From contig OY282444.1 of NCBI GenBank assembly GCA_958296125.1, forward strand, positions 4,821,266 through 4,885,265: a DNA stretch of 64,000 bases. Direction: 5' to 3'. Below the pieces are notes generated by a model, which was not told where the DNA came from, made no database searches, and worked only from the letters and a program-made list of their open reading frames with translations. The translations under genes and the position numbers were made by a program. This DNA is from an uncultured Poribacteria bacterium (lineage in GTDB: Bacteria; Poribacteria; WGA-4E; PCPOR2b). Of this stretch, positions 4,147 to 51,178 are shown piece after piece; positions within the stretch are counted from its first letter, which is position 1, and each line of letters begins with the position of its first letter.

Positions 4147-4204
4147 AACGTTCAACTGCGTAGGTCCCAATGTTGCTGTAATTCGATTTTAACCTAAGTT
4201 GCCA
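4147..4204. repeat. Degenerate repeat-element ends upstream of trpB
   Basis: Positions 4147-4170, read on the minus strand, match the terminal 24 bp of the inverted-repeat element at 26981-27056 at 21 of 24 positions. Positions 4190-4204 (TAACCTAAGTTGCCA) match the end of the second repeat family seen at 16351, 46391 and 50928. Both lie in the gap between trpB and the VWA membrane gene and look like decayed element ends. Confidence 0.5.
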
Positions 4205-4278
4205 CTATCTTAGACAAAACGAGGATGTCGAGATATGAATCTTGAATGGCTTGGAATAGTAACAACTTGCGTATTTTA

Positions 4279-10693: not shown

Positions 10694-13600
10694 TCAATAT
10701 CCCCGTTCGCCTAAATCATGCACCCGCATCACCTCATTCCCCCGTGGGTCAATAACCTTGACTGCGACGCGGTGGTGTTCCCCCGCAGGGAACGGCAGCG
10801 ATTCTGTCCCGCTGAACTTTTCAAAACGCTCTGTGTCAATAACGCCTTTGAGTGCCCTCGCTATCTTGGTCCACGCCTTTTTGTCGGGAAAGAAGGCTTG
10901 GGTGATGCAGAAGGTTCGACCGTCGTAGTCGGTGTCAAGGAACCACGCCGCCACCTTGTCACCGCCTGCGGAGCTCACCGTGTTCTCTACGGGGTTGTAG
11001 ATGTCCACCCCCTCCATTTTGACGATATACTCCCCGTTCTCTGTCATTTCGATTTCGGTGCGGGGTGCCCCAAACACAGTGAACAGTTGACTGGAGGGTG
11101 TCTTCTTGAGCAGGTCGCCCATTGTTACATCGGGGTTAATGTGCGCCATGTGGGCACGAATCCTCCGATGCGGGTCGGCTTGGATAGCCGCTTGCGCTTC
11201 GCCCTCGAAACTGAAGCCAGCAAAAACCAGTTCATCGTAACCGCGCTGATAGGCAATCCGCACACAATCTTCCACCTGTATCACAGTCACGGGCCCGTGC
11301 TGCGGCCCAAACATCACCGCCACATTTCGCTTCCCATCGTTACCTTCCCAACTCCCTTCGGCGTGAAGAATACCATCCTCAAGCGGATCGAGCTCAGCGA
11401 ATTTCATTGTCCGGTTATCGGGGAAACGCACACCGTCATTTCGCAGCAGACGAATCATCTGATCGAGATACGCTTCGGCGTTGGTGGGTTCACCCTCAAC
11501 GCTGTCAGACTCGAATGTGTCCAGACTTTCTTCCTGTTCGCCGCCGATGGGTGACTCAGTATCAAGCGATGCTTCGGCGGGTTGCACCGCCTCCACTGTG
11601 AAGGGACCGCTTACCCGCAGCTTCTTTCTATCCACCTCTGGCTGATCGACCAATTCCTCGCCTTCGGAAGATGCGGCAATGCAGCCGTTCACCTCGTCCA
11701 TCTTTGCCCGGAACGCCTCGCGATAGTCAATTAAGGCATCACGCAACGCTTGGGGCCAATCGGGGTCAGTGTCATAGGGCACTTCCCACTCCTGCCATGC
11801 CTTTTTCGGAAGTTCCCAGCGTCGTCGGTCCGCATCCGTGACCGCCTTTTTCCCTTCGCGCCGCTCTTTCTCAGCAAGTTTGGAAAGCAGTTTCGTCCAA
11901 ATCTCTGGTGTCACTTCCCCCAAGGCGCGGTTGAGGGCCTCTAATTTTTCTGCGAGAATTGGCTCATGTTTTGCGAAGATGGGATCCAGGGCGGTGTTTT
12001 GGGCGATGCTTCTGAGGGTGATGTGTGGAACTATTTTGTTGACAAAGCCGCCTGCAATCTCTTTCGATTCATCCTTGAGTTTGTAGTAGTCGAAGGTCCC
12101 CGTCAAAAGGCGTTGACGCGCTAAGGCAACCGCGACCCGGCTGGTATCAATGGTTATCCAGCGTCTGCCCCAATTCTCGGCAACGTAGGCGGTGGTGCCA
12201 CTACCGCAGTTATGGACCGCACATACCTCAGTCAAGTAGGAATGATCTGTTTCAATCTCAAGGTCGTACACTTCTTCATCAGCGTCGGCGCGTTGGATAT
12301 TGATAATTTCTACCGGTTTGCGATGAACGCCAAAGTAAACGATGTCGCCAACTCGCAAACTATCCGATCTCCGCCATTGTTGCAACGGGGTTTCGGAAGG
12401 GTGGACAGTTTGAACTGTCCGATAAATCTGTTTGAGCACGCCATCAAGCTGCCGGGAAATCTCAAGATTCGTGAAACGCAGGACAGTTAATCCTAGCTGA
12501 TGTAGGTAATCGGTACGTATCGAGTCATAGGATTTGGCTTCGGGCGTGAAGTGTGTGTCTCCGTCCACTTCAATAATTAGGCCCACATCATGCGCGTAGA
12601 AGTCCGTGATATATGGACCAATCGGATGTTGCTTCCTGAATTTGATGCCGAGTTGCTTGCCACGGAGAAGGGACCATAAAACCTTCTCGCTTGAAGTCAT
12701 TTCTCGGCGCAGTTCACGCGCTCGGCCAAAGTGGCTAGCAGGGACTTCGCTCCATACACGCTCTTTTCCGTATGAGAGTATGCGCTGCTTACACCGAATG
12801 TAGTGATCTGCTGTTACCCAAAGTGTTGTCGGGGATTGCGCGTGCTCAATGCCAATGAGTTGCCCGCGATATGGCTTGCGAATTACGCGGCGGATGCGGC
12901 GGGGGTTGCCGGTGTGGGAAAGGACCCAGTCGCCGGGGCGGAGGTTTTCGATGGATGTTAGGTTGACCCCTTGTGCGCTAAAAATCTTCGTGCCTTTGCG
13001 AACACAGGTGGGATCGAGGACAAGATCGCCGGGGTCAGTGGTCATGAGGAGACAGCGTTCAATAATTTTTGTTGCGGTTTGTACGACGTAAAGCTTTTCA
13101 TGAACCAAAGCACCGCCACCAGTATCAATCCAGACGTTTTTGACATCGGCAACAGGATAATCATCAAGATACCTCTTATAACATAGATTTTTTCCTTCTA
13201 ATATCAACCGATCATTTTGCGCTAAACGTTTCAGTCCTTGTTGAATTACCGACCAATGTCGCCTTCTTGGTGGATGGTATTCGTTACCACGCCACACGAA
13301 ATATTTAGAGGTTTCTCCTGAAGTTTCTCCTTGAGAATTCAGAGCTGTTACTCTAAATCTGTTTCCTTTGGGAATTGTTTCCTCTCCGGCAAGTTGTGAT
13401 TTGCTTAGCCTAATAATCTCTCCATTTTCTTTCTCAAGAAGGTTATATCTATCAGCAAGTCCTTCAATTTGTCTTGGCACAAAAATCTGTCTATATTTTA
13501 CTGCTTGGGCATCTTTTGAATACCACAACAAAATATCATAGATAGAGTCTAACGTCATACTTCCTTTACCAGCAGTTTTTTTAAAGACAATTTGACTAAC

Positions 13601-14464
13601 AAAATTCTCACTCCCAAATACCTCATCCATGATACACCGCACCCGATGCACATTTTCATCACTAATTTGCACAAAGATGCTCCCGCTGTCAGTCAATAGC
13701 TCTTTGGCAACAATCAGGCGGTCCCGCAGGTAGGCGAGGTAGGAGTGGACACCGAGGGTCCATGTATCGCGGTAGGCTTTAATCTGCTCCGGTTCGCGAG
13801 TTAGGTCACCTGCCTTGTCTTTCACATCGCGTTGAAAGACAGTGGGTTGGAAGTTTGAGGCGAACTTGATGCCGTAGGGTGGATCGATGTAAATCATCTG
13901 GACTTTGCCCGCGAGGTCTTCGCGTTGCGCCAAGGAACTCATCACGGTCAGGCTATCCCCCAAAATGAGGCGGTTTGCCCAGTTTACATCGTGCTGGTAA
14001 AATTGCACCGCCTCCCGGTATCCTTGCTGCGGATCGGCAAAGAGTTCGCGTTGGACGTTTTCCCGCTCGGCTACCTTCACAATGGCTTTCGCACTCACGC
14101 GCTCGTGGATATGCAGCGCGACCGGATCAACGGCGAACGATTTCGCTTCCTGTTTGCCCGCCCATTCGAGCCATGGGCTGTGGGTTTTCAGTGCTGCTGC
14201 GAGGATTTGCACCTCATCGGGAGAGAGCGGTCCCTGTTGTGCCTTTTCGAGCAGTTCAGGGAGTTGGTCGGCATCGCTGCTTTCGTCGAATCGCAGGCTC
14301 GGCGGCAGGTGGGGGTTGTAGGCGTATACCTGCTTCGGTTTTTCCTGAACTTGCCCGTGGGAGGCGATGCCCGCGGGCGGGTTGTTCGTTCGGGTGGCGG
14401 TGTCGTGTCGGTAGGCTTGGATTTCTGTTTCCTGCTTTTTAGCGGGGCGTTTGTGTCGTGCCAT
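10694..14464 (-). CDS. Type III Mod DNA methyltransferase containing an intein
   Basis: 1256 residues as translated, 990 after removal of the 266-residue intein. I take the ATG at 14464 with AAAGGA upstream as the start; a TTG seven codons earlier is less likely. The methylase belongs to the beta class: catalytic motif IV DPPY (194-197) comes before the AdoMet motif I, DPT + CGSGTT, which is split by the intein (DPT at 484-486, C at 753). The protein modifies adenine or cytosine at the recognition site of the restriction system and pairs with Res. A long C-terminal region after about residue 800 probably holds target-recognition and Res-contact functions. Without splicing, motif I is broken and methylation should fail. 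Confidence 0.92.
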   Translation of the reverse strand: MARHKRPAKKQETEIQAYRHDTATRTNNPPAGIASHGQVQEKPKQVYAYNPHLPPSLRFDESSDADQLPELLEKAQQGPLSPDEVQILAAALKTHSPWLEWAGKQEAKSFAVDPVALHIHERVSAKAIVKVAERENVQRELFADPQQGYREAVQFYQHDVNWANRLILGDSLTVMSSLAQREDLAGKVQMIYIDPPYGIKFASNFQPTVFQRDVKDKAGDLTREPEQIKAYRDTWTLGVHSYLAYLRDRLIVAKELLTDSGSIFVQISDENVHRVRCIMDEVFGSENFVSQIVFKKTAGKGSMTLDSIYDILLWYSKDAQAVKYRQIFVPRQIEGLADRYNLLEKENGEIIRLSKSQLAGEETIPKGNRFRVTALNSQGETSGETSKYFVWRGNEYHPPRRRHWSVIQQGLKRLAQNDRLILEGKNLCYKRYLDDYPVADVKNVWIDTGGGALVHEKLYVVQTATKIIERCLLMTTDPGDLVLDPTCVRKGTKIFSAQGVNLTSIENLRPGDWVLSHTGNPRRIRRVIRKPYRGQLIGIEHAQSPTTLWVTADHYIRCKQRILSYGKERVWSEVPASHFGRARELRREMTSSEKVLWSLLRGKQLGIKFRKQHPIGPYITDFYAHDVGLIIEVDGDTHFTPEAKSYDSIRTDYLHQLGLTVLRFTNLEISRQLDGVLKQIYRTVQTVHPSETPLQQWRRSDSLRVGDIVYFGVHRKPVEIINIQRADADEEVYDLEIETDHSYLTEVCAVHNCGSGTTAYVAENWGRRWITIDTSRVAVALARQRLLTGTFDYYKLKDESKEIAGGFVNKIVPHITLRSIAQNTALDPIFAKHEPILAEKLEALNRALGEVTPEIWTKLLSKLAEKERREGKKAVTDADRRRWELPKKAWQEWEVPYDTDPDWPQALRDALIDYREAFRAKMDEVNGCIAASSEGEELVDQPEVDRKKLRVSGPFTVEAVQPAEASLDTESPIGGEQEESLDTFESDSVEGEPTNAEAYLDQMIRLLRNDGVRFPDNRTMKFAELDPLEDGILHAEGSWEGNDGKRNVAVMFGPQHGPVTVIQVEDCVRIAYQRGYDELVFAGFSFEGEAQAAIQADPHRRIRAHMAHINPDVTMGDLLKKTPSSQLFTVFGAPRTEIEMTENGEYIVKMEGVDIYNPVENTVSSAGGDKVAAWFLDTDYDGRTFCITQAFFPDKKAWTKIARALKGVIDTERFEKFSGTESLPFPAGEHHRVAVKVIDPRGNEVMRVHDLGERGY
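12209..13006 (-). mobile_element. Intein with DUF559/Vsr-like endonuclease, inserted in Mod motif I
   Basis: A 266-residue in-frame insertion (Mod residues 487-752). It begins with Cys487 (CVRKGTKIF), has the block B-type TADH (551-554), and ends EVCAVHN followed by Cys753, the canonical His-Asn / +1 Cys splice junction. Removal restores the contiguous motif DPTCGSGTT. Between the Hint halves lies a roughly 100-residue domain (about 583-680) with LRREMTSSEKVLWSLLRGKQ, GPYITDFY and IIEVDGDTHF. This is the layout of the DUF559 family, a PD-(D/E)XK fold related to Vsr nucleases. It would serve as a homing endonuclease targeting motif I of intein-less methylase genes. No LAGLIDADG or HNH motif is seen. 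Confidence 0.93.
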
Positions 14465-14529
14465 ATTTGTTTTTCCTTTATTCAAATTCCTGGGGTTAAA
14501 GATTTGTTACTTTTCAATACCGAGCAAGA

Positions 14530-16162: not shown

Positions 16163-16491
16163 GAGATTATCTCAGATATTAGAATCAAGCATATTGGTTG
16201 GTGATGAGCATAAGATGCTGGTATTAAAGTTACACTTGCTATACATCTGTCGCTCGCTAGGGTTTGGGGGTCGGGCTAGGAAGCCCGACCTACGCGAATT
16301 GGCACTCCGCTGACGTGAAAGCGGTGTGACCGCAGTGGATTTTCAATAAGTAGCAACTTGGGTTATAAAATTTCTGCTGGTACAAAGGGCCAAATAATGA
16401 TATAATTACATCTGCCTATCACCTTGGGAAAAGAGTGAGCGCAGACAAGAAAATCTGATCATTTCCAAAAACCAGTTTCGCTCTTTGCCCC
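16163..16491. other. 329-bp gene-free gap holding a repeat element
   Basis: No credible gene in this gap. Positions 16230-16365 form a repeat element described separately. The remainder (16370-16491) shows no feature I can name; a short minus-strand frame there only overlaps the ATPase gene end and has no ribosome site. Confidence 0.6.
16230..16365 (-). repeat. MITE-like element, copy C (TAACCCAAGTTGC family)
   Basis: Read on the minus strand it begins TAACCCAAGTTGCTA (16365-16351). It contains a perfect 8-bp hairpin (GTCGGGCT / AGCCCGAC, 16270-16289), then CCCAAACCCTAGCGAGCGAC, and ends TAGCAAGTGTAA, an imperfect inverted copy of the start. The CCCAAA..CTAGCGAG block recurs at 46530-46552 and the hairpin at 43075-43098. 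No coding capacity. Confidence 0.6.
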
Positions 16492-22999: not shown

Positions 23000-24538
23000 C
23001 TACGATTTGATTATATCCTTGTATTGGTCAAAATATGTTCGTGTCGCCTGCATGACTTTTGGTGCCAGCCGAAGTGTAGAGATCATCGTTGGGATTGCCA
23101 TGAGCGCGAAAGCCCCGTCAATGAGGCTGATTGCGGTGTCCAAAGAGATCACAGCAGCCACCACTAGCATTGCCACATAGAAGTAGTTGTAGATATGCTG
23201 GCGTTCGGCACCAATCAAGAATCCCATACATTTCGCGCCGTAGTATGAGTAGGCAAACATGGTGCTAGTGCTGAAACAGACAGCGCAAAGGGTGAGCAGA
23301 TACGGTCCGATGCCGGGCATGGCTTTGCCGAAAGCCATTGCTGTAAGGGTGATGCCGATTACAGTGCTATCAGCTTCGCTGTTGAGTTCGGTGCTCTGCC
23401 AGACTCCTGTTGTGAGAATAATAAGTGCTGTGATGGTGCAGATTACAAGCGTGTCGATCGCGGGCCCAAGCATGGCGATAAGCCCTTCTCGGACCGGCTC
23501 GGTGGTCTTGGCGGCACCGTGAGCCAACGCTGCTGTGCCGATGCCTGCTTCGTTGGAATACGCCGCCCGGCGTATACCGGTCATAATAACGGCACCAATC
23601 GCACTAGGATAGAACCGAATAGGACCAATGCCACGTATACCGATCGTAATAACGGCACCAATCGCTCCACCGGCGACAGCCTTGCCGGAAAAAGCATCTG
23701 TGATAATCAACCAGAGGCATTTCGGTATATTGGCGTAATTAACCCCAAGAATCCACACGGCGGCTGCCATATAGAGCAGCAACATCCCCGGCACCAGCTT
23801 TGAGGCGACCGTGCCAATCCGTAGGATGCCGCCAAATATGATTAGTGCGACCGATCCGGCGATGATGATGCCAGCTACCAAATTAAAGGTGAAGTGCGAC
23901 TCGCCGCCCCAACCGTTTGGGACAAAGATAACATCGCGGAGAATCTGAACCAGTTGATTCACTTGGAACGCGGGCAAGGCACCTATCAGGGCGACGACAC
24001 AGAAGAAAACCCCTAGCGGTCTCCATTTTTTTCCGAGGCCCTCTACGATTGTATACATGGGGCCGCCCTGCGTCGTGCCCCGACTGTCTGTCCCTCGATA
24101 CATGATGGCGAGGGTACAGGTAAAGAACTTCGTTGCCATCCCCACAACGGCACTGAGCCACATCCAGAAGATGGCACCCGGTCCACCCGTCGTTACAGCG
24201 ACCGCCACACCGGCTATATTCCCTACCCCAATGGTTGCCGCCAAGGCGCTGGATAACGCCGCAAAGTGCGAGATATCCCCAGGGTCACTGGGGTCGTCGA
24301 ATTTGCCACGTAATATATCAATGGCATGCCTGATAAATCGAAAAGGTAAAAACCGGGAATAGCAGAGAAAAAAGGCACCGCCTCCCAAGAGCAAGACTAG
24401 TAACCAGGGGCCCCAAGCAACATCAGCAAAGCCAATTATGATTCCCTCTAAGTCTAAGAGCGAGACTAGTAATATGATTTTCTCTACTAGTAATATGATT
24501 TTCTCTACTAGTAATATGATTTCCTCTATCTGTTGCAT
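23000..24538 (-). CDS. Sodium:alanine/glycine symporter family (AGCS) transporter
   Basis: A 512-residue inner-membrane amino-acid carrier of the AGCS family, importing alanine or glycine with Na+. Typical motifs are GVGNIAGVAVAVTTGGPGAIFWMW, TQGGPMY, AAYSNEAGIGTAALAHGAAKT and SYYGAKCMGFLIG, with about ten membrane helices. GAAAGGA lies ahead of the ATG at 24538. There are two oddities. The N-terminus is built of three 7-residue repeats (EEIILLV, then EKIILLV twice). A 63-bp in-frame duplication (units at 23571 and 23634) inserts 21 residues ahead of the conserved SNEAG motif, within a region normally strictly conserved. Function may be impaired or altered. No regulatory element is visible beyond the terminator. 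Confidence 0.92.
   Translation of the reverse strand: MQQIEEIILLVEKIILLVEKIILLVSLLDLEGIIIGFADVAWGPWLLVLLLGGGAFFLCYSRFLPFRFIRHAIDILRGKFDDPSDPGDISHFAALSSALAATIGVGNIAGVAVAVTTGGPGAIFWMWLSAVVGMATKFFTCTLAIMYRGTDSRGTTQGGPMYTIVEGLGKKWRPLGVFFCVVALIGALPAFQVNQLVQILRDVIFVPNGWGGESHFTFNLVAGIIIAGSVALIIFGGILRIGTVASKLVPGMLLLYMAAAVWILGVNYANIPKCLWLIITDAFSGKAVAGGAIGAVITIGIRGIGPIRFYPSAIGAVIMTGIRRAAYSNEAGIGTAALAHGAAKTTEPVREGLIAMLGPAIDTLVICTITALIILTTGVWQSTELNSEADSTVIGITLTAMAFGKAMPGIGPYLLTLCAVCFSTSTMFAYSYYGAKCMGFLIGAERQHIYNYFYVAMLVVAAVISLDTAISLIDGAFALMAIPTMISTLRLAPKVMQATRTYFDQYKDIIKS
23571..23665. repeat. 63-bp in-frame duplication in the symporter gene
   Basis: Positions 23571-23602 and 23634-23665 share nearly all of 32 bases (TATACCG then TAATAACGGCACCAATCGC). 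Their 63-bp offset adds 21 codons and repeats the residues AIGAVI-TGIR before the SNEAG motif. Confidence 0.8.
24464..24526. repeat. Three 21-bp tandem repeats at the symporter N-terminus
   Basis: The unit ACTAGTAATATGATTTTCTC(T) occurs three times in a row and encodes EKIILLV on the minus strand. Unit length is a multiple of three, so copy-number change keeps the frame. It extends a hydrophobic N-terminal helix. Confidence 0.85.
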
Positions 24539-36119: not shown

Positions 36120-36160
36120 AATCCGAGTTGCGACCTACCCTATAGGTGACAACTTGGATT
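36120..36160. repeat. Palindromic repeat relic
   Basis: AATCCGAGTTGCGACC (36120-36135) and GGTGACAACTTGGATT (36145-36160) are imperfect inverted copies separated by 9 bp. The arms resemble the ends of the TAACCCAAGTTGC repeat family, so this is probably a shortened member. Confidence 0.5.
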
Positions 36161-42929: not shown

Positions 42930-43383
42930 TGAATCCTCCGGTGTGTCTGAGAATAGATTGATTCATGTTAAGAAATTGTGCAACAAAAACCGAGTTTGTG
43001 TCAAGAATTCGGTTTCTCTTCGCATTTTGCCCTTTCTTCTTCAATGAGCCCCGCACCCGTAGAGCCCCGCACCTGTAGGTCGGGCTTCCTAGCCCGACAG
43101 CCCCAACGGGCTAATACCCCCATGATGACATGAGCCAATAGGTTTATGATTCGGCTTTGCCTTCAGGTATCATAGCAGAATCCGTCCGATTCTGCAACGA
43201 AAAAGCCGCGCTTTTCATAGGGGGATGTCGGGTATAAAAAAGGTCGATCAAATTTTACCCTTTTCGCTGCGGTAATCGGTTATAATGAAAGGCATCCTAA
43301 TTAACCCAACACCCACCCCTTTTTGAGATTGGGCAAATTTTCCAATTTGGTGAGGAACGCATCAGATCTGAACGAGGAGGAAT
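42930..43383. other. 454-bp divergent gap with repeats
   Basis: No credible gene. It must hold promoters for the ThDP gene (leftward) and the HpcH/HpaI gene (rightward). It contains a 16-bp tandem repeat pair (43046-43077) and a hairpin (43075-43098). TATAAT at 43281-43286 has no matching -35 box. Confidence 0.6.
43046..43098. repeat. Tandem 16-mers plus hairpin repeat
   Basis: GAGCCCCGCACC(C/T)GTA occurs twice in tandem at 43046-43061 and 43062-43077. It runs into the 24-bp hairpin sequence 43075-43098 (GTCGGGCT TCCT AGCCCGAC core), identical to 16270-16293 on the other strand. Confidence 0.75.
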
Positions 43384-44166
43384 ATGAGAAACAGCAAAGC
43401 CCTGAAGAAAATTCGTCAAAACCGATGCGCCCGAGTGTGTGGCTTGGGGCATTACCTGCCATTTTTTGTGCGTTACGCCGCGCATTTTGGCTACGATGCT
43501 ATCTGGTTGGACCTAGAACACCGCGCGATGACCGATCGTGAGGTGCAGAGCCTGTTGGGACTGTGCCACCACAACGATATAGACTGTATGGTGCGACCCC
43601 CTACCCAAGAGCGGACGCGCCTCTATCGCTACCTTGAAGATGGTGCGACCGGTTTGATGATGCCCCTGGTCTCAGATGCGGCGGCCGCCCGGCACATTGT
43701 GAACGCTGTGAAATTTCCGCCTATGGGCAATCGTGGGTTGGACGGTGCTGGTCTGGATGGCGATTTCGGGCTTGGGGTCTGGCACCCGGACAGCGGCTAT
43801 ACCGATGATGCCAATCGAGAGACTTTCATCGCGGTTCAAATTGAGACACCGGGGGCACTTGAGAATGTCGAAGAAATTGCGGCTGTGCCGGGAGTGGACG
43901 CGCTGTTCGTCGGCCCCGGAGATCTCGGTCTACGCCTGATCCAGGATAAAAGTGCAGCACAGACTAGCCTTGACCAAGCCATCGCCCAAGTTGCTGATAC
44001 AGCAAAAAGACACGGTATCGCTTGGGGGATTCCCGCCGGTACGCCTGAACTAATCAAACAGTACCGCGCAATGGGAGCACAAATGCTAGCTTACGGTGGA
44101 GACTTCGCATTGACAGCTGTGCTGGAGTGCAGCAGCCAAGATTTTGACAAAGCACTAGGGGAATAA
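43384..44166 (+). CDS. HpcH/HpaI-family aldolase
   Basis: 260 residues of the class II pyruvate aldolase family. Visible are YDAIWLDLEHRAM, GLMMPLVSDAAAARHIV with the substrate-region Arg, FIAVQIETPGALENVEEIAAV with metal-binding Glu, and VDALFVGPGDLGL with the metal Asp. Members cleave 4-hydroxy-2-oxo acids to pyruvate and an aldehyde. AGGAGG precedes the ATG. It opens the plus-strand catabolic run and has a distant paralogue at 50127. The two share function class but differ in the N-terminus. Confidence 0.92.
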   Translation: MRNSKALKKIRQNRCARVCGLGHYLPFFVRYAAHFGYDAIWLDLEHRAMTDREVQSLLGLCHHNDIDCMVRPPTQERTRLYRYLEDGATGLMMPLVSDAAAARHIVNAVKFPPMGNRGLDGAGLDGDFGLGVWHPDSGYTDDANRETFIAVQIETPGALENVEEIAAVPGVDALFVGPGDLGLRLIQDKSAAQTSLDQAIAQVADTAKRHGIAWGIPAGTPELIKQYRAMGAQMLAYGGDFALTAVLECSSQDFDKALGE

Positions 44167-44453: not shown

Positions 44454-46388
44454 ATGAAAACAGATATACTGTCGGCAAATGCGGTTACTATGCCCGGAAT
44501 AGTCAGTGTGCAGGCAACAAAACTCTCGGCCCCACCGGCGTGGGCACTTAAGGAGCGCAACCTGATAAGCCTTATGGAAGAGGCAGCACCGATGATGGTC
44601 ATGAAGTACACCGAACCGGGAGGTGCCTTATACTTTGCGGACGACTTGGATGACCTCTACGAACGGTTTTATAATTGGGGGCTTTTCTACGCCATGGGGG
44701 CGGATGAGCGTCTACTCGAAATGGCACTACTGTGTTGGAACGCATCGACCCGTATCACTAACGACGAAATCGTGCATCGGGAGCATCCGCGCTTCTCGCA
44801 GCAGGTCCATAGGGAATACTACAATTTAGCGCAGCCCGGTGCGGCGGAGTGGCATCATTTGGGCGAAGGTAACATGGCTTTCTACGACTTTGGTGTTGCC
44901 AGCCCCACCATTTCGGAGAATGTGCGACGTGCGAAACAGTTCGCTGCGATGTACATCGGCGAAGACCCACAAGCCCCTAACTACAATTCCAAATATAAAA
45001 TCTTTCGTTCTCCTATCCAAACCAGCCGAGGTCCCTGTTTCCAAGCCGATCTCCAACACTTAAAAGATTGGCTTGCAGGAAGAATGGGAGAGGATCCCAG
45101 CAAGGCGATGGGTATGCGGTCAACGCTTTATCCAGTCGTCAAGGAGTTGGAGGCAAATTGGTATGAGCAGCCACAACGGAGAGGCGAAATCTGGAAACTG
45201 TTTGAGCAGATCACTCTTAACGGCGACGTAGCACATAGCTTGGGATCCACGGCATTGGTGACCAATGCTTACCTGTATACTGGGGACGACAAGTACAAAC
45301 GGTGGGTCCTCGAATACACGGAAGCGTGGATGGATCGGATCAAAGCTAACAATGGGATTATCCCGGACAATGTCGGACCCACAGGAAAGATTGGTGAGCA
45401 TCGTCAGGGTCAGTGGTGGGGTGGTCTTTACGGATGGAACAGTTATTGGGCGGGCGATATCATGTTTAACTCACTCATCATCGGTGCCGAATGCGCGCTC
45501 TTGCTCACCGGGGACTTCAGCTATCTCGAACTCCTCCGTTCACAGGTCAAACTTCTGCTAGATAACGCGGTTACACGCGATGACGGTCAACTCCTTGTCC
45601 CGACTCGATACGGTCCCAACGGTTGGGAAGCGTATAAGCCGATGCGGATGAAAGATTTGGCGCATTTGTATCACGCCTCAATGGACCCTCAGGATTACGA
45701 GTTGATTACGAGGGTGCGAGCAGGGGACGTCGCGCGCGATTGGAACCACGTTATGTGTGAGGCAGAAAAGAATAACGGGAACACAGAGTATGGACGATTC
45801 CAATACTACGATGGGAAGAATCCCGATTGGCCCCAAAAAATACTGGATGCCGAATATGAAGGGGCTTTGGCAATGTTTGAGGCGATGCGTAACGATACCC
45901 GCGATGTCCCGACAATAATCGCAGATAATCAGCAACCTCCGCACTTTGTTCTTACTAAGGGATTGACACAGGTGATGTTGGGTGCCCCGCAGGCTGTTTA
46001 CACCGGTGGACTTCTGCGAGCGACCGTGCGTTACTTCGATCCGGACCGCGCTCGGCCCGGCCTCCCGGAGGATGTTGCCGCCCTTGTCGACAAGTTGGGC
46101 TCGGACGTGGTGGGGATTCAACTTGTGAACCTCAGTAGAACCCAAACCCGAAATGTTATCATCCAAGCGGGGGCTTTCGGGGAGCACCAATTTACCAAAG
46201 CACAGTTTCAGGAAGTGGACTCAGAGGGCTCATCGGAGCGGATTGTTCCGATTGATTCAAAGTTTTTTGCCGTTGAACTTCTGCCTTCGAGAACGATTCG
46301 GCTGGAGGTTGGTATGCGCCGCTTTGTTAACTCCCCGAGCTACGCCTTTCCTTGGCATGGGGACAAGATACCGGTGCCGTTTCAATAA
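44454..46388 (+). CDS. 644-residue protein of unknown function, probable alpha/alpha-toroid
   Basis: I do not recognise a family. The N-terminal two thirds are rich in helices with recurring WVLEYTEAWMDRIKANNG and FSYLELLRSQVKLLLDN motifs, which resemble six-hairpin (alpha/alpha)6 folds of glycosidases, lyases and epimerases. The stretch GQWWGGLYGWNSYWAGDIMF is strikingly aromatic and could line an active site. The last roughly 120 residues look beta-rich. There is no signal peptide, so it is probably cytoplasmic. GGAG precedes the ATG. Location among catabolic genes suggests a role in carbohydrate or glycoside breakdown, but that is inference. Confidence 0.75.
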   Translation: MKTDILSANAVTMPGIVSVQATKLSAPPAWALKERNLISLMEEAAPMMVMKYTEPGGALYFADDLDDLYERFYNWGLFYAMGADERLLEMALLCWNASTRITNDEIVHREHPRFSQQVHREYYNLAQPGAAEWHHLGEGNMAFYDFGVASPTISENVRRAKQFAAMYIGEDPQAPNYNSKYKIFRSPIQTSRGPCFQADLQHLKDWLAGRMGEDPSKAMGMRSTLYPVVKELEANWYEQPQRRGEIWKLFEQITLNGDVAHSLGSTALVTNAYLYTGDDKYKRWVLEYTEAWMDRIKANNGIIPDNVGPTGKIGEHRQGQWWGGLYGWNSYWAGDIMFNSLIIGAECALLLTGDFSYLELLRSQVKLLLDNAVTRDDGQLLVPTRYGPNGWEAYKPMRMKDLAHLYHASMDPQDYELITRVRAGDVARDWNHVMCEAEKNNGNTEYGRFQYYDGKNPDWPQKILDAEYEGALAMFEAMRNDTRDVPTIIADNQQPPHFVLTKGLTQVMLGAPQAVYTGGLLRATVRYFDPDRARPGLPEDVAALVDKLGSDVVGIQLVNLSRTQTRNVIIQAGAFGEHQFTKAQFQEVDSEGSSERIVPIDSKFFAVELLPSRTIRLEVGMRRFVNSPSYAFPWHGDKIPVPFQ

Positions 46389-46390
46389 GA

Positions 46391-46570
46391 TAACCCAAGT
46401 TGCTAGTCGTAGGCATATTGCTTTGAATCCCTGGCCTGCCTGCCCCGTTCGCGGGGCCCTCCCGCGAACGGGACAGGTCGGCACGGACCCAATCTTATCG
46501 GGGCTCCGTATGCCGTAACCGCTTGCCTAACCCAAAGCCTAGCGAGGCGACAGGTGGCAACCTGTGTTAA
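46391..46570. repeat. MITE-like element, copy A
   Basis: It begins TAACCCAAGTTGCTA and ends TGGCAACCTGTGTTA, imperfect inverted termini. Inside is a perfect 12-bp hairpin (arms 46444-46455 and 46461-46472, loop GCCCT). The block CCCAAAGCCTAGCGAG (46530-46545) recurs in copy C. Positions 46391-46514 match copy B (50928-51046) closely. It fills the gap between the 644-aa gene and the PhyH gene. Confidence 0.7.
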
Positions 46571-46615
46571 AATAGCACCCCTTTTGCTACGACAGATGGA
46601 TTCAGGAGGAAGATT

Positions 46616-50918: not shown

Positions 50919-50927
50919 GAAATATTA

Positions 50928-51046
50928 TAACCCAAGTTGCTAGTCGTAGGCACATTGCTTTGAATCCCTGGCCTGCCTGTCCCGTTCGCGGGGCCCTCGG
51001 CACGGGGTCTCGGAACGGCCCCGATCTTATCGGGGCTCCGTATGCC
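50928..51046. repeat. MITE-like element, copy B
   Basis: It begins TAACCCAAGTTGCTAGTCG and matches copy A (46391-46514) nearly base for base over its first 70 bp and last 30 bp. Its 12-bp hairpin is degraded, but it has a 7-bp hairpin CCCCGAT CTT ATCGGGG at 51019-51035. No clear right terminus is found. Copies A and B are direct repeats enclosing the block 46616-50918. Confidence 0.7.
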
Positions 51047-51178
51047 ATGACCTCCGTCTCATGAACCCATTAAGTTCATGAGTTCAAACGTTCATTAATT
51101 GCACAGATGAACCAACATAGCCCCAGTGGGGCGATATGTGTGTAGTATTTTCATTTTTTGGGGATTAGGAGAATAGAA

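Follow-up and report, generated by a model that had tools for sequence, protein, structure and literature searches.

The short, mostly intergenic repeats of this Poribacteria genome are very probably MITEs of the IS982 type: their 14-bp ends would be bound by a DDE transposase that moves the enclosed DNA and duplicates 5 bp of the target. We directly observed the ends with their target duplications, congeners in which the site is empty, and relatives whose full-length elements have the same ends and duplications. Judging from these sequences, we infer that an IS982 transposase moved the copies in trans and, since no such transposase was detected in the genome that carries them, that they are orphaned there, as MITEs without a parent.

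A large family of terminal repeats

We analyzed a 64-kb stretch of DNA (the window; positions 4821266-4885265 of a single-contig genome of 5156246 bp, with a completeness of 98.85%), in which a sequence-only reading had noticed recurring ends in several intergenic gaps and had proposed a genome-wide count. The 15-bp end, TAACCCAAGTTGCTA, was found at 83 sites across the genome with at most one mismatch, compared with two for a reversed control, and at 173 sites, compared with 23, with at most two mismatches. Within the window itself there were seven matches with at most three mismatches, a number reached by none of 100 shuffles (mean 1.09, largest 5). The genome-wide reversed controls and the window shuffles together rule out a chance origin of the ends. 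Each of the places named in the sequence-only reading does carry the end: 4190 (two mismatches), 16351-16365 on the minus strand (none), 46391 (none), 50928 (none), and 36119 (three). The matches beyond these places are 46555, at the opposite terminus of the 46.4-kb copy, and a hit at 43982, which has three mismatches and probably reflects chance.

Alignment of the ends was based on 112 of the 173 sites with at most two mismatches. Their conserved block is the 14-bp AACCCAAGTTGCTA, followed by G in most cases, a positive outcome of the alignment check that the sequence-only reading had proposed. The bases 5′ of the block read T (65%), A (67%), W, W, W, and T, where the last T belongs to the search pattern and its frequency of 96% is therefore inflated. 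Because the target duplication ends with this leading T of the 15-bp pattern, we placed the start of the element proper at AACCC...

The family is mostly intergenic, with 5 of 80 ends outside the window falling within ORFs of at least 120 aa; such ORFs make up 89% of the window. There were no Rfam matches at the gathering threshold within the 64 kb. One single end (G000:C1:894530) precedes an ATG by 18 bp, and the sequence downstream reads, by eye, like mutS. The family extends across the order: 49 of the 58 genomes searched (own included) had 14 or more sites, outnumbering the reversed control by a factor of 2.5 or more, and the other nine were near the control level.

Copies in the window

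The 16.2-kb copy (16229-16364, minus strand, 136 bp) has a perfect end, AACCCAAGTTGCTA, at 16351-16364 (minus strand) and a decayed one, GTTACACTTGCTA, at 16229-16241. Its putative target duplications, read by eye, are TTAAA (16224-16228) and ATAAA (16365-16369), which agree at four of five positions. The fold of the whole copy has a z of -3.43, and a hairpin, GTAGGTCGGGCTTCCTAGCCCGAC, occupies 16270-16293 on the minus strand. The 46.4-kb copy (46392-46568, plus strand, 177 bp) starts 3 bases past the stop codon of the upstream ORF and has a subterminal module, GTCGTAGGCATA, and a strong central hairpin (z of -4.41 for the fold of 46420-46540). It is flanked by AAGAT (46387-46391) and AAAAT (46569-46573), again matching at four of five positions. 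The CCCAAA..CTAGCGAG block that these two copies were said to have in common, around unlike centers, is visible in their sequences.

The 50.9-kb copy (50929-51145, plus strand, with an approximate right boundary at about 51141-51149) has an intact left end preceded by ATTAT (50924-50928); its right side is eroded, with no recognizable end and no readable partner of the duplication. An 82-bp copy (4191-4272, plus strand) has AACCTAAGTTGCCA as its left end and AACAACTTGCGT as its right end, the last base of which is missing. Read by eye, and if one terminal base is indeed missing, its flanks are an exact ATTTT (4186-4190 and 4273-4277), compared with three of five matches by the ungapped script. 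The minimal copy (36120-36160, plus strand, 41 bp) consists of both ends and little else and folds as one hairpin (z of -7.66); it has no clear target duplication, its flanks agreeing at one of five positions.

Two other features of the window are worth recording. An ORF of 1263 aa resembling a DNA methyltransferase (10694-14485, minus strand) seems to contain an intein-like insertion of 266 residues (residues 494-759, between DPT and CGSGTT), which begins with C, ends with HN, and includes a stretch that we take, by eye, to resemble a DUF559-type endonuclease. At 24465-24527, a 21-bp unit, ACTAGTAATATGATTTTCTCT, is present in three head-to-tail copies.

Paired ends and target duplications

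Each of the 112 ends was paired by a script with its best partner, using an ungapped comparison of the flanks. This resulted in 71 pairs, a few of them overlapping, and 32 single ends. Among the 40 pairs whose second end was good, the 5-bp flanks were identical in 13, versus 2.6% for random pairings, and agreed at four or five positions in 21, versus 18%. The remaining 31 of the 71 pairs had a weak second end and were at about the level of chance, with one exact duplication and four pairs agreeing at four or five positions. Because these 31 second ends were weak (one exact duplication) and a further 32 ends had no partner, we conclude that many of the copies have decayed, have one end only, or were mispaired.

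After removal of overlaps, 38 well-paired elements were left, which measure 41-352 bp and are bounded by AACCCAAGTTGCTA inverted repeats; 13 of them have exact duplications. All are shorter than a transposase needs and, as in MITEs generally, have no coding capacity; terminal inverted repeats are likewise present, with the second end weak or missing at many sites. The targets are 5-bp, AT-rich duplications of the approximate form T-AWWWT-A. We observed the same in G036, a relative from the same order with 320 sites, in which 29 distinct elements were examined and 25 were paired. Exact duplications were present in 8 of the 25 (versus 0.8%), and 14 agreed at four or five positions (versus 8.8%). 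The search for a target duplication that had been suggested from the sequence was thus positive in both genomes.

Full-length IS982 elements in related genomes

The sequence-only reading had also proposed a search for a transposase element of full length that shares these ends, and such an element does exist, in related genomes only. G004, a member of the window's genus, has 924 bp between two identical ends, with one ORF of 273 aa (L129). Its protein, the one full-length IS protein that was scanned with family models, matched NCBIfam NF033520 (IS982 family transposase) at 174.8 bits (cut-off 130) and Pfam DDE_Tnp_1_3 at 52.2 bits (cut-off 27). The window copies have the ends of this element and, unlike IS982 insertion sequences (NF033520), no transposase gene. 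The flanks of the G004 copy are unmatched (AAGAT/ATATA), and a sibling in G002 that is 85% identical has an exact AGCAT duplication. We examined 29 transposase loci, fragments included, and found convergent ends 0.7-1.2 kb apart at 11, spanning 923-928 bp in nine cases and 951 and 1034 bp in the others. Exact 5-bp duplications (AGCAT, ATTAT, ATCTT, ATATA, and ATACT) flanked 5 of 10 testable IS copies; besides the G004 copy, four other testable copies had no exact duplication.

Within the genus, five of six genomes matched the L129 protein at E 0.001, G001 at 31% identity only. Close relatives of the transposase (at least 83% identity), full-length or fragmentary, were present in G002, G003, and G004, and a 30-residue piece with 90% identity lies beside the same end in G005. 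In the window's own genome (G000, 98.85% complete), neither the protein nor the family model gave an IS982 match. In G003, seven IS982 fragments with 92%-94% identity sit at contig ends (L144, L148, L157-L161), which suggests a recent multicopy IS that broke the assembly. Across the order, 26 of 72 genomes matched the transposase at E 1e-20, several of them with fragments or stops, and genomes rich in sites may lack an intact transposase at this threshold (a 70-residue fragment in G036 and none in G022). By eye, no transposase-like ORF was apparent between two convergent ends 2.4 kb apart in the own genome (L049) or in a 2.3-kb pair of G036 (L133).

The more distant IS982-like genes of the genus (30%-31% identity) had no such end at L138, L151, and L153, and isolated ends with at most three mismatches, forming no convergent pair, at L139 (two) and L141 (one). 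A motif-free search for inverted repeats covered 19 of 53 IS982 loci, 15 of the 19 outside Poribacteria. Repeats were detected at 14 loci: 11 had AACYCAAGTTGC on at least one end, two had AACCCAACTTGC, and at one all three listed repeats were unrelated. The five loci with no inverted repeat include all four Poribacteria loci (L200, L203, L215, and L223). The ends of this IS982 subgroup recur in records from Pseudanabaena, Anaerolineales, and Desulfatirhabdium.

Empty sites and other occupants in congeners

Insertion polymorphism, as found in MITEs, was seen for three elements (46392, 50929, and 1528114). The site of the 46392 copy is empty in G005 and G004, where the target is uninterrupted and a ATARRATAGYAC-like stretch occurs once; G004 additionally lacks about 20 bases of the right flank. 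In G002 and G003 it is occupied by a different sequence with partial MITE ends (by eye), and G001, which has no right anchor, is uninformative. At the 50929 site, the G002 spacer (L281) measures 32 bp against 250 bp in the window, a difference of 218 bp. Differing centers follow a similar left module in G001 and G003, with diverged ends, and G004 and G005 have no anchors and are uninformative. The element at 1528114 is absent from all five congeners, in a spacer too diverged for a single target to be read. Homology between the 16.2-kb copy and G004 stops at 16224; beyond this point, the spacer could not be aligned with that of G004 or G001, and no clean empty site was found there.

Diverse centers behind one end

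When the subterminal sequences at the 112 ends were grouped by single linkage, 11 multi-member classes (17, 12, 8, 7, 4, 4, 3, 2, 2, 2, and 2 members, a few odd ones joined) and 49 singletons emerged. The first 24 bases inside the repeat were compared with those of 11 IS copies. Three ends, forming the class of three, matched the IS subterminal sequence at 20-24 of 24 positions, and the other 109 matched at 16 or fewer, the maximum of the shuffled controls being 16. Given that resemblance to the IS inside the repeat is confined to 3 of 112 ends, most centers appear not to have arisen from the sampled IS copies by simple internal deletion. Ten of the 38 elements had both ends classed, in nine different class pairings, where single assignments are soft because the threshold of 15 is the largest null value. 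The diversity of centers is real: several subterminal modules stand behind one end and are combined variously.

One site (46392) carries different centers in different species, reflecting either repeated insertion into a favored target or an exchange of centers between copies. The nine pairings among ten elements, and the different centers at one target (own genome, G002, and G003, with G004 and G005 empty), could also be taken to mean that the 14-bp ends are a general address for cassette-like DNA, in which centers are swapped and the ends and target stay. We consider this unlikely, and recurrent independent insertion into a favored target is simpler. In the IS982 mechanism that we propose, the DDE transposase would bind the AACCCAAGTTGCTA ends, move whatever DNA sits between two of them, and insert it into AT-rich targets (about T-AWWWT-A) with duplication of 5 bp. 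The varied centers may then come from the mobilization of any enclosed DNA, combined with repeated insertion into favored targets and recombination between copies, and some of these centers hold GTAG-type hairpins.

Alternative explanations

The sequence-only reading had described the family as MITE-like or REP-like. The first half of that description is borne out by the copies, ends, duplications, and IS; the second fits the hairpin only. A hairpin with a GTAG foot stands alone at 43075-43098 (plus strand, fold z of -3.84), as had been noted, with no MITE end (at most three mismatches in 14) within 250 bp, and is 100% identical to the one at 16270-16293. In this it resembles the GTAG-tagged REPs that are described, along with RAYTs, in PMC3733652. 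The family might then be one of REP/BIME type, in which a RAYT (Y1 transposase) moves GTAG palindromes to which the shared ends belong; the own genome has two Y1_Tnp hits, and the hairpin occurs both inside some copies and alone. However, in a part census of 27 GTAGGTCGGGCTTCCTAGCCCGAC hairpins, 22 had no MITE end within 250 bp and five had one, so the repeat unit is not itself a GTAG-tagged palindrome, and the MITE ends with their 5-bp duplications are separate from it. Neither Y1_Tnp locus has a MITE end with at most three mismatches. The RAYT-like gene at 4411522 (L264, G000:C1 about 4411000-4412400) is flanked on both sides by a different repeat, CTGTGGGAGGGAAATCCC...GGCAGGGATGCCTCTCCCACAG. 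Moreover, target duplications are not expected from Y1 transposition and are present here (13 of 40 exact). The GTAG hairpin is a separate palindrome, a module in a few copies and not the family itself. Lone hairpins and RAYT loci without MITE ends rule out a REP-only reading as the main explanation, and we regard a REP/BIME origin of the family as highly improbable.

It is very unlikely that a transposase of another family recognizes the same ends and is perhaps still active here. Such an enzyme could explain why an insertion of the own genome is absent from five of five congeners when no IS982 gene was detected, but the ends bracket an IS982 gene at 11 of 29 loci, the motif-free search returned AACYCAAGTTGC repeats at 11 of 19 IS982 loci, and it is simpler to suppose that the IS was lost once the last insertions had occurred. 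It is barely credible that the ends are a regulatory motif (a promoter -10 region, a leader, or a terminator) conserved by selection and not mobile. Such a motif would agree with the intergenic location, and TATAAT precedes 10 of the 112 ends, versus 5.6 expected from column frequencies; a -10-like hexamer is found at 35 ends, nine of which also have a -35-like one (an uncontrolled count). The TATAAT excess, however, is small and due to the AT-rich target; target duplications are present, the same ends bracket a transposase gene, and the empty sites refute regulation as the primary explanation. Integron attC-like cassettes, suggested by the TAAC...GTTA ends, were set aside, given the scattered positions of the copies and their target duplications.

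Relation to known elements

IS982-derived MITEs are already known from Cardinium, where MITECca01, with ISCca4 (IS982 family) as its parent, is about 240 bp long and has 169 copies (PMC9769881). The Poribacteria family resembles it in being short and noncoding, with IS982-type inverted repeats and many, mostly intergenic copies. MITECca01 is homogeneous, however, and has intact parents in the same genome, whereas the Poribacteria family has many unrelated centers behind one end, is spread over an order, and has no detected parent in the window's genome. TIMEs, which are Tn3-derived with mosaic cores, are similar in their common ends, varied cores, AT-rich targets, and 5-6-bp duplications, but have 38-bp Tn3-type ends and a Tn3 transposase in place of 14-bp ends and an IS982 transposase (PMC4133298). 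Among the papers listed in the literature searches, no title or abstract opening describes this Poribacteria MITE family, and the main text of a review (PMC10969869) mentions neither IS982 nor Poribacteria. What is notable here is the diversity of centers, the order-wide spread, and the lack of a detected parent.

Transposition thus offers a single explanation for a large class of intergenic repeats, present in most genomes that were searched in a Poribacteria order, and links these repeats to an IS982 subgroup whose ends recur in records from Pseudanabaena, Anaerolineales, and Desulfatirhabdium. The family is also a case in which MITEs seem to outlast their transposase, and in which the turnover of centers at one site could be traced across species.
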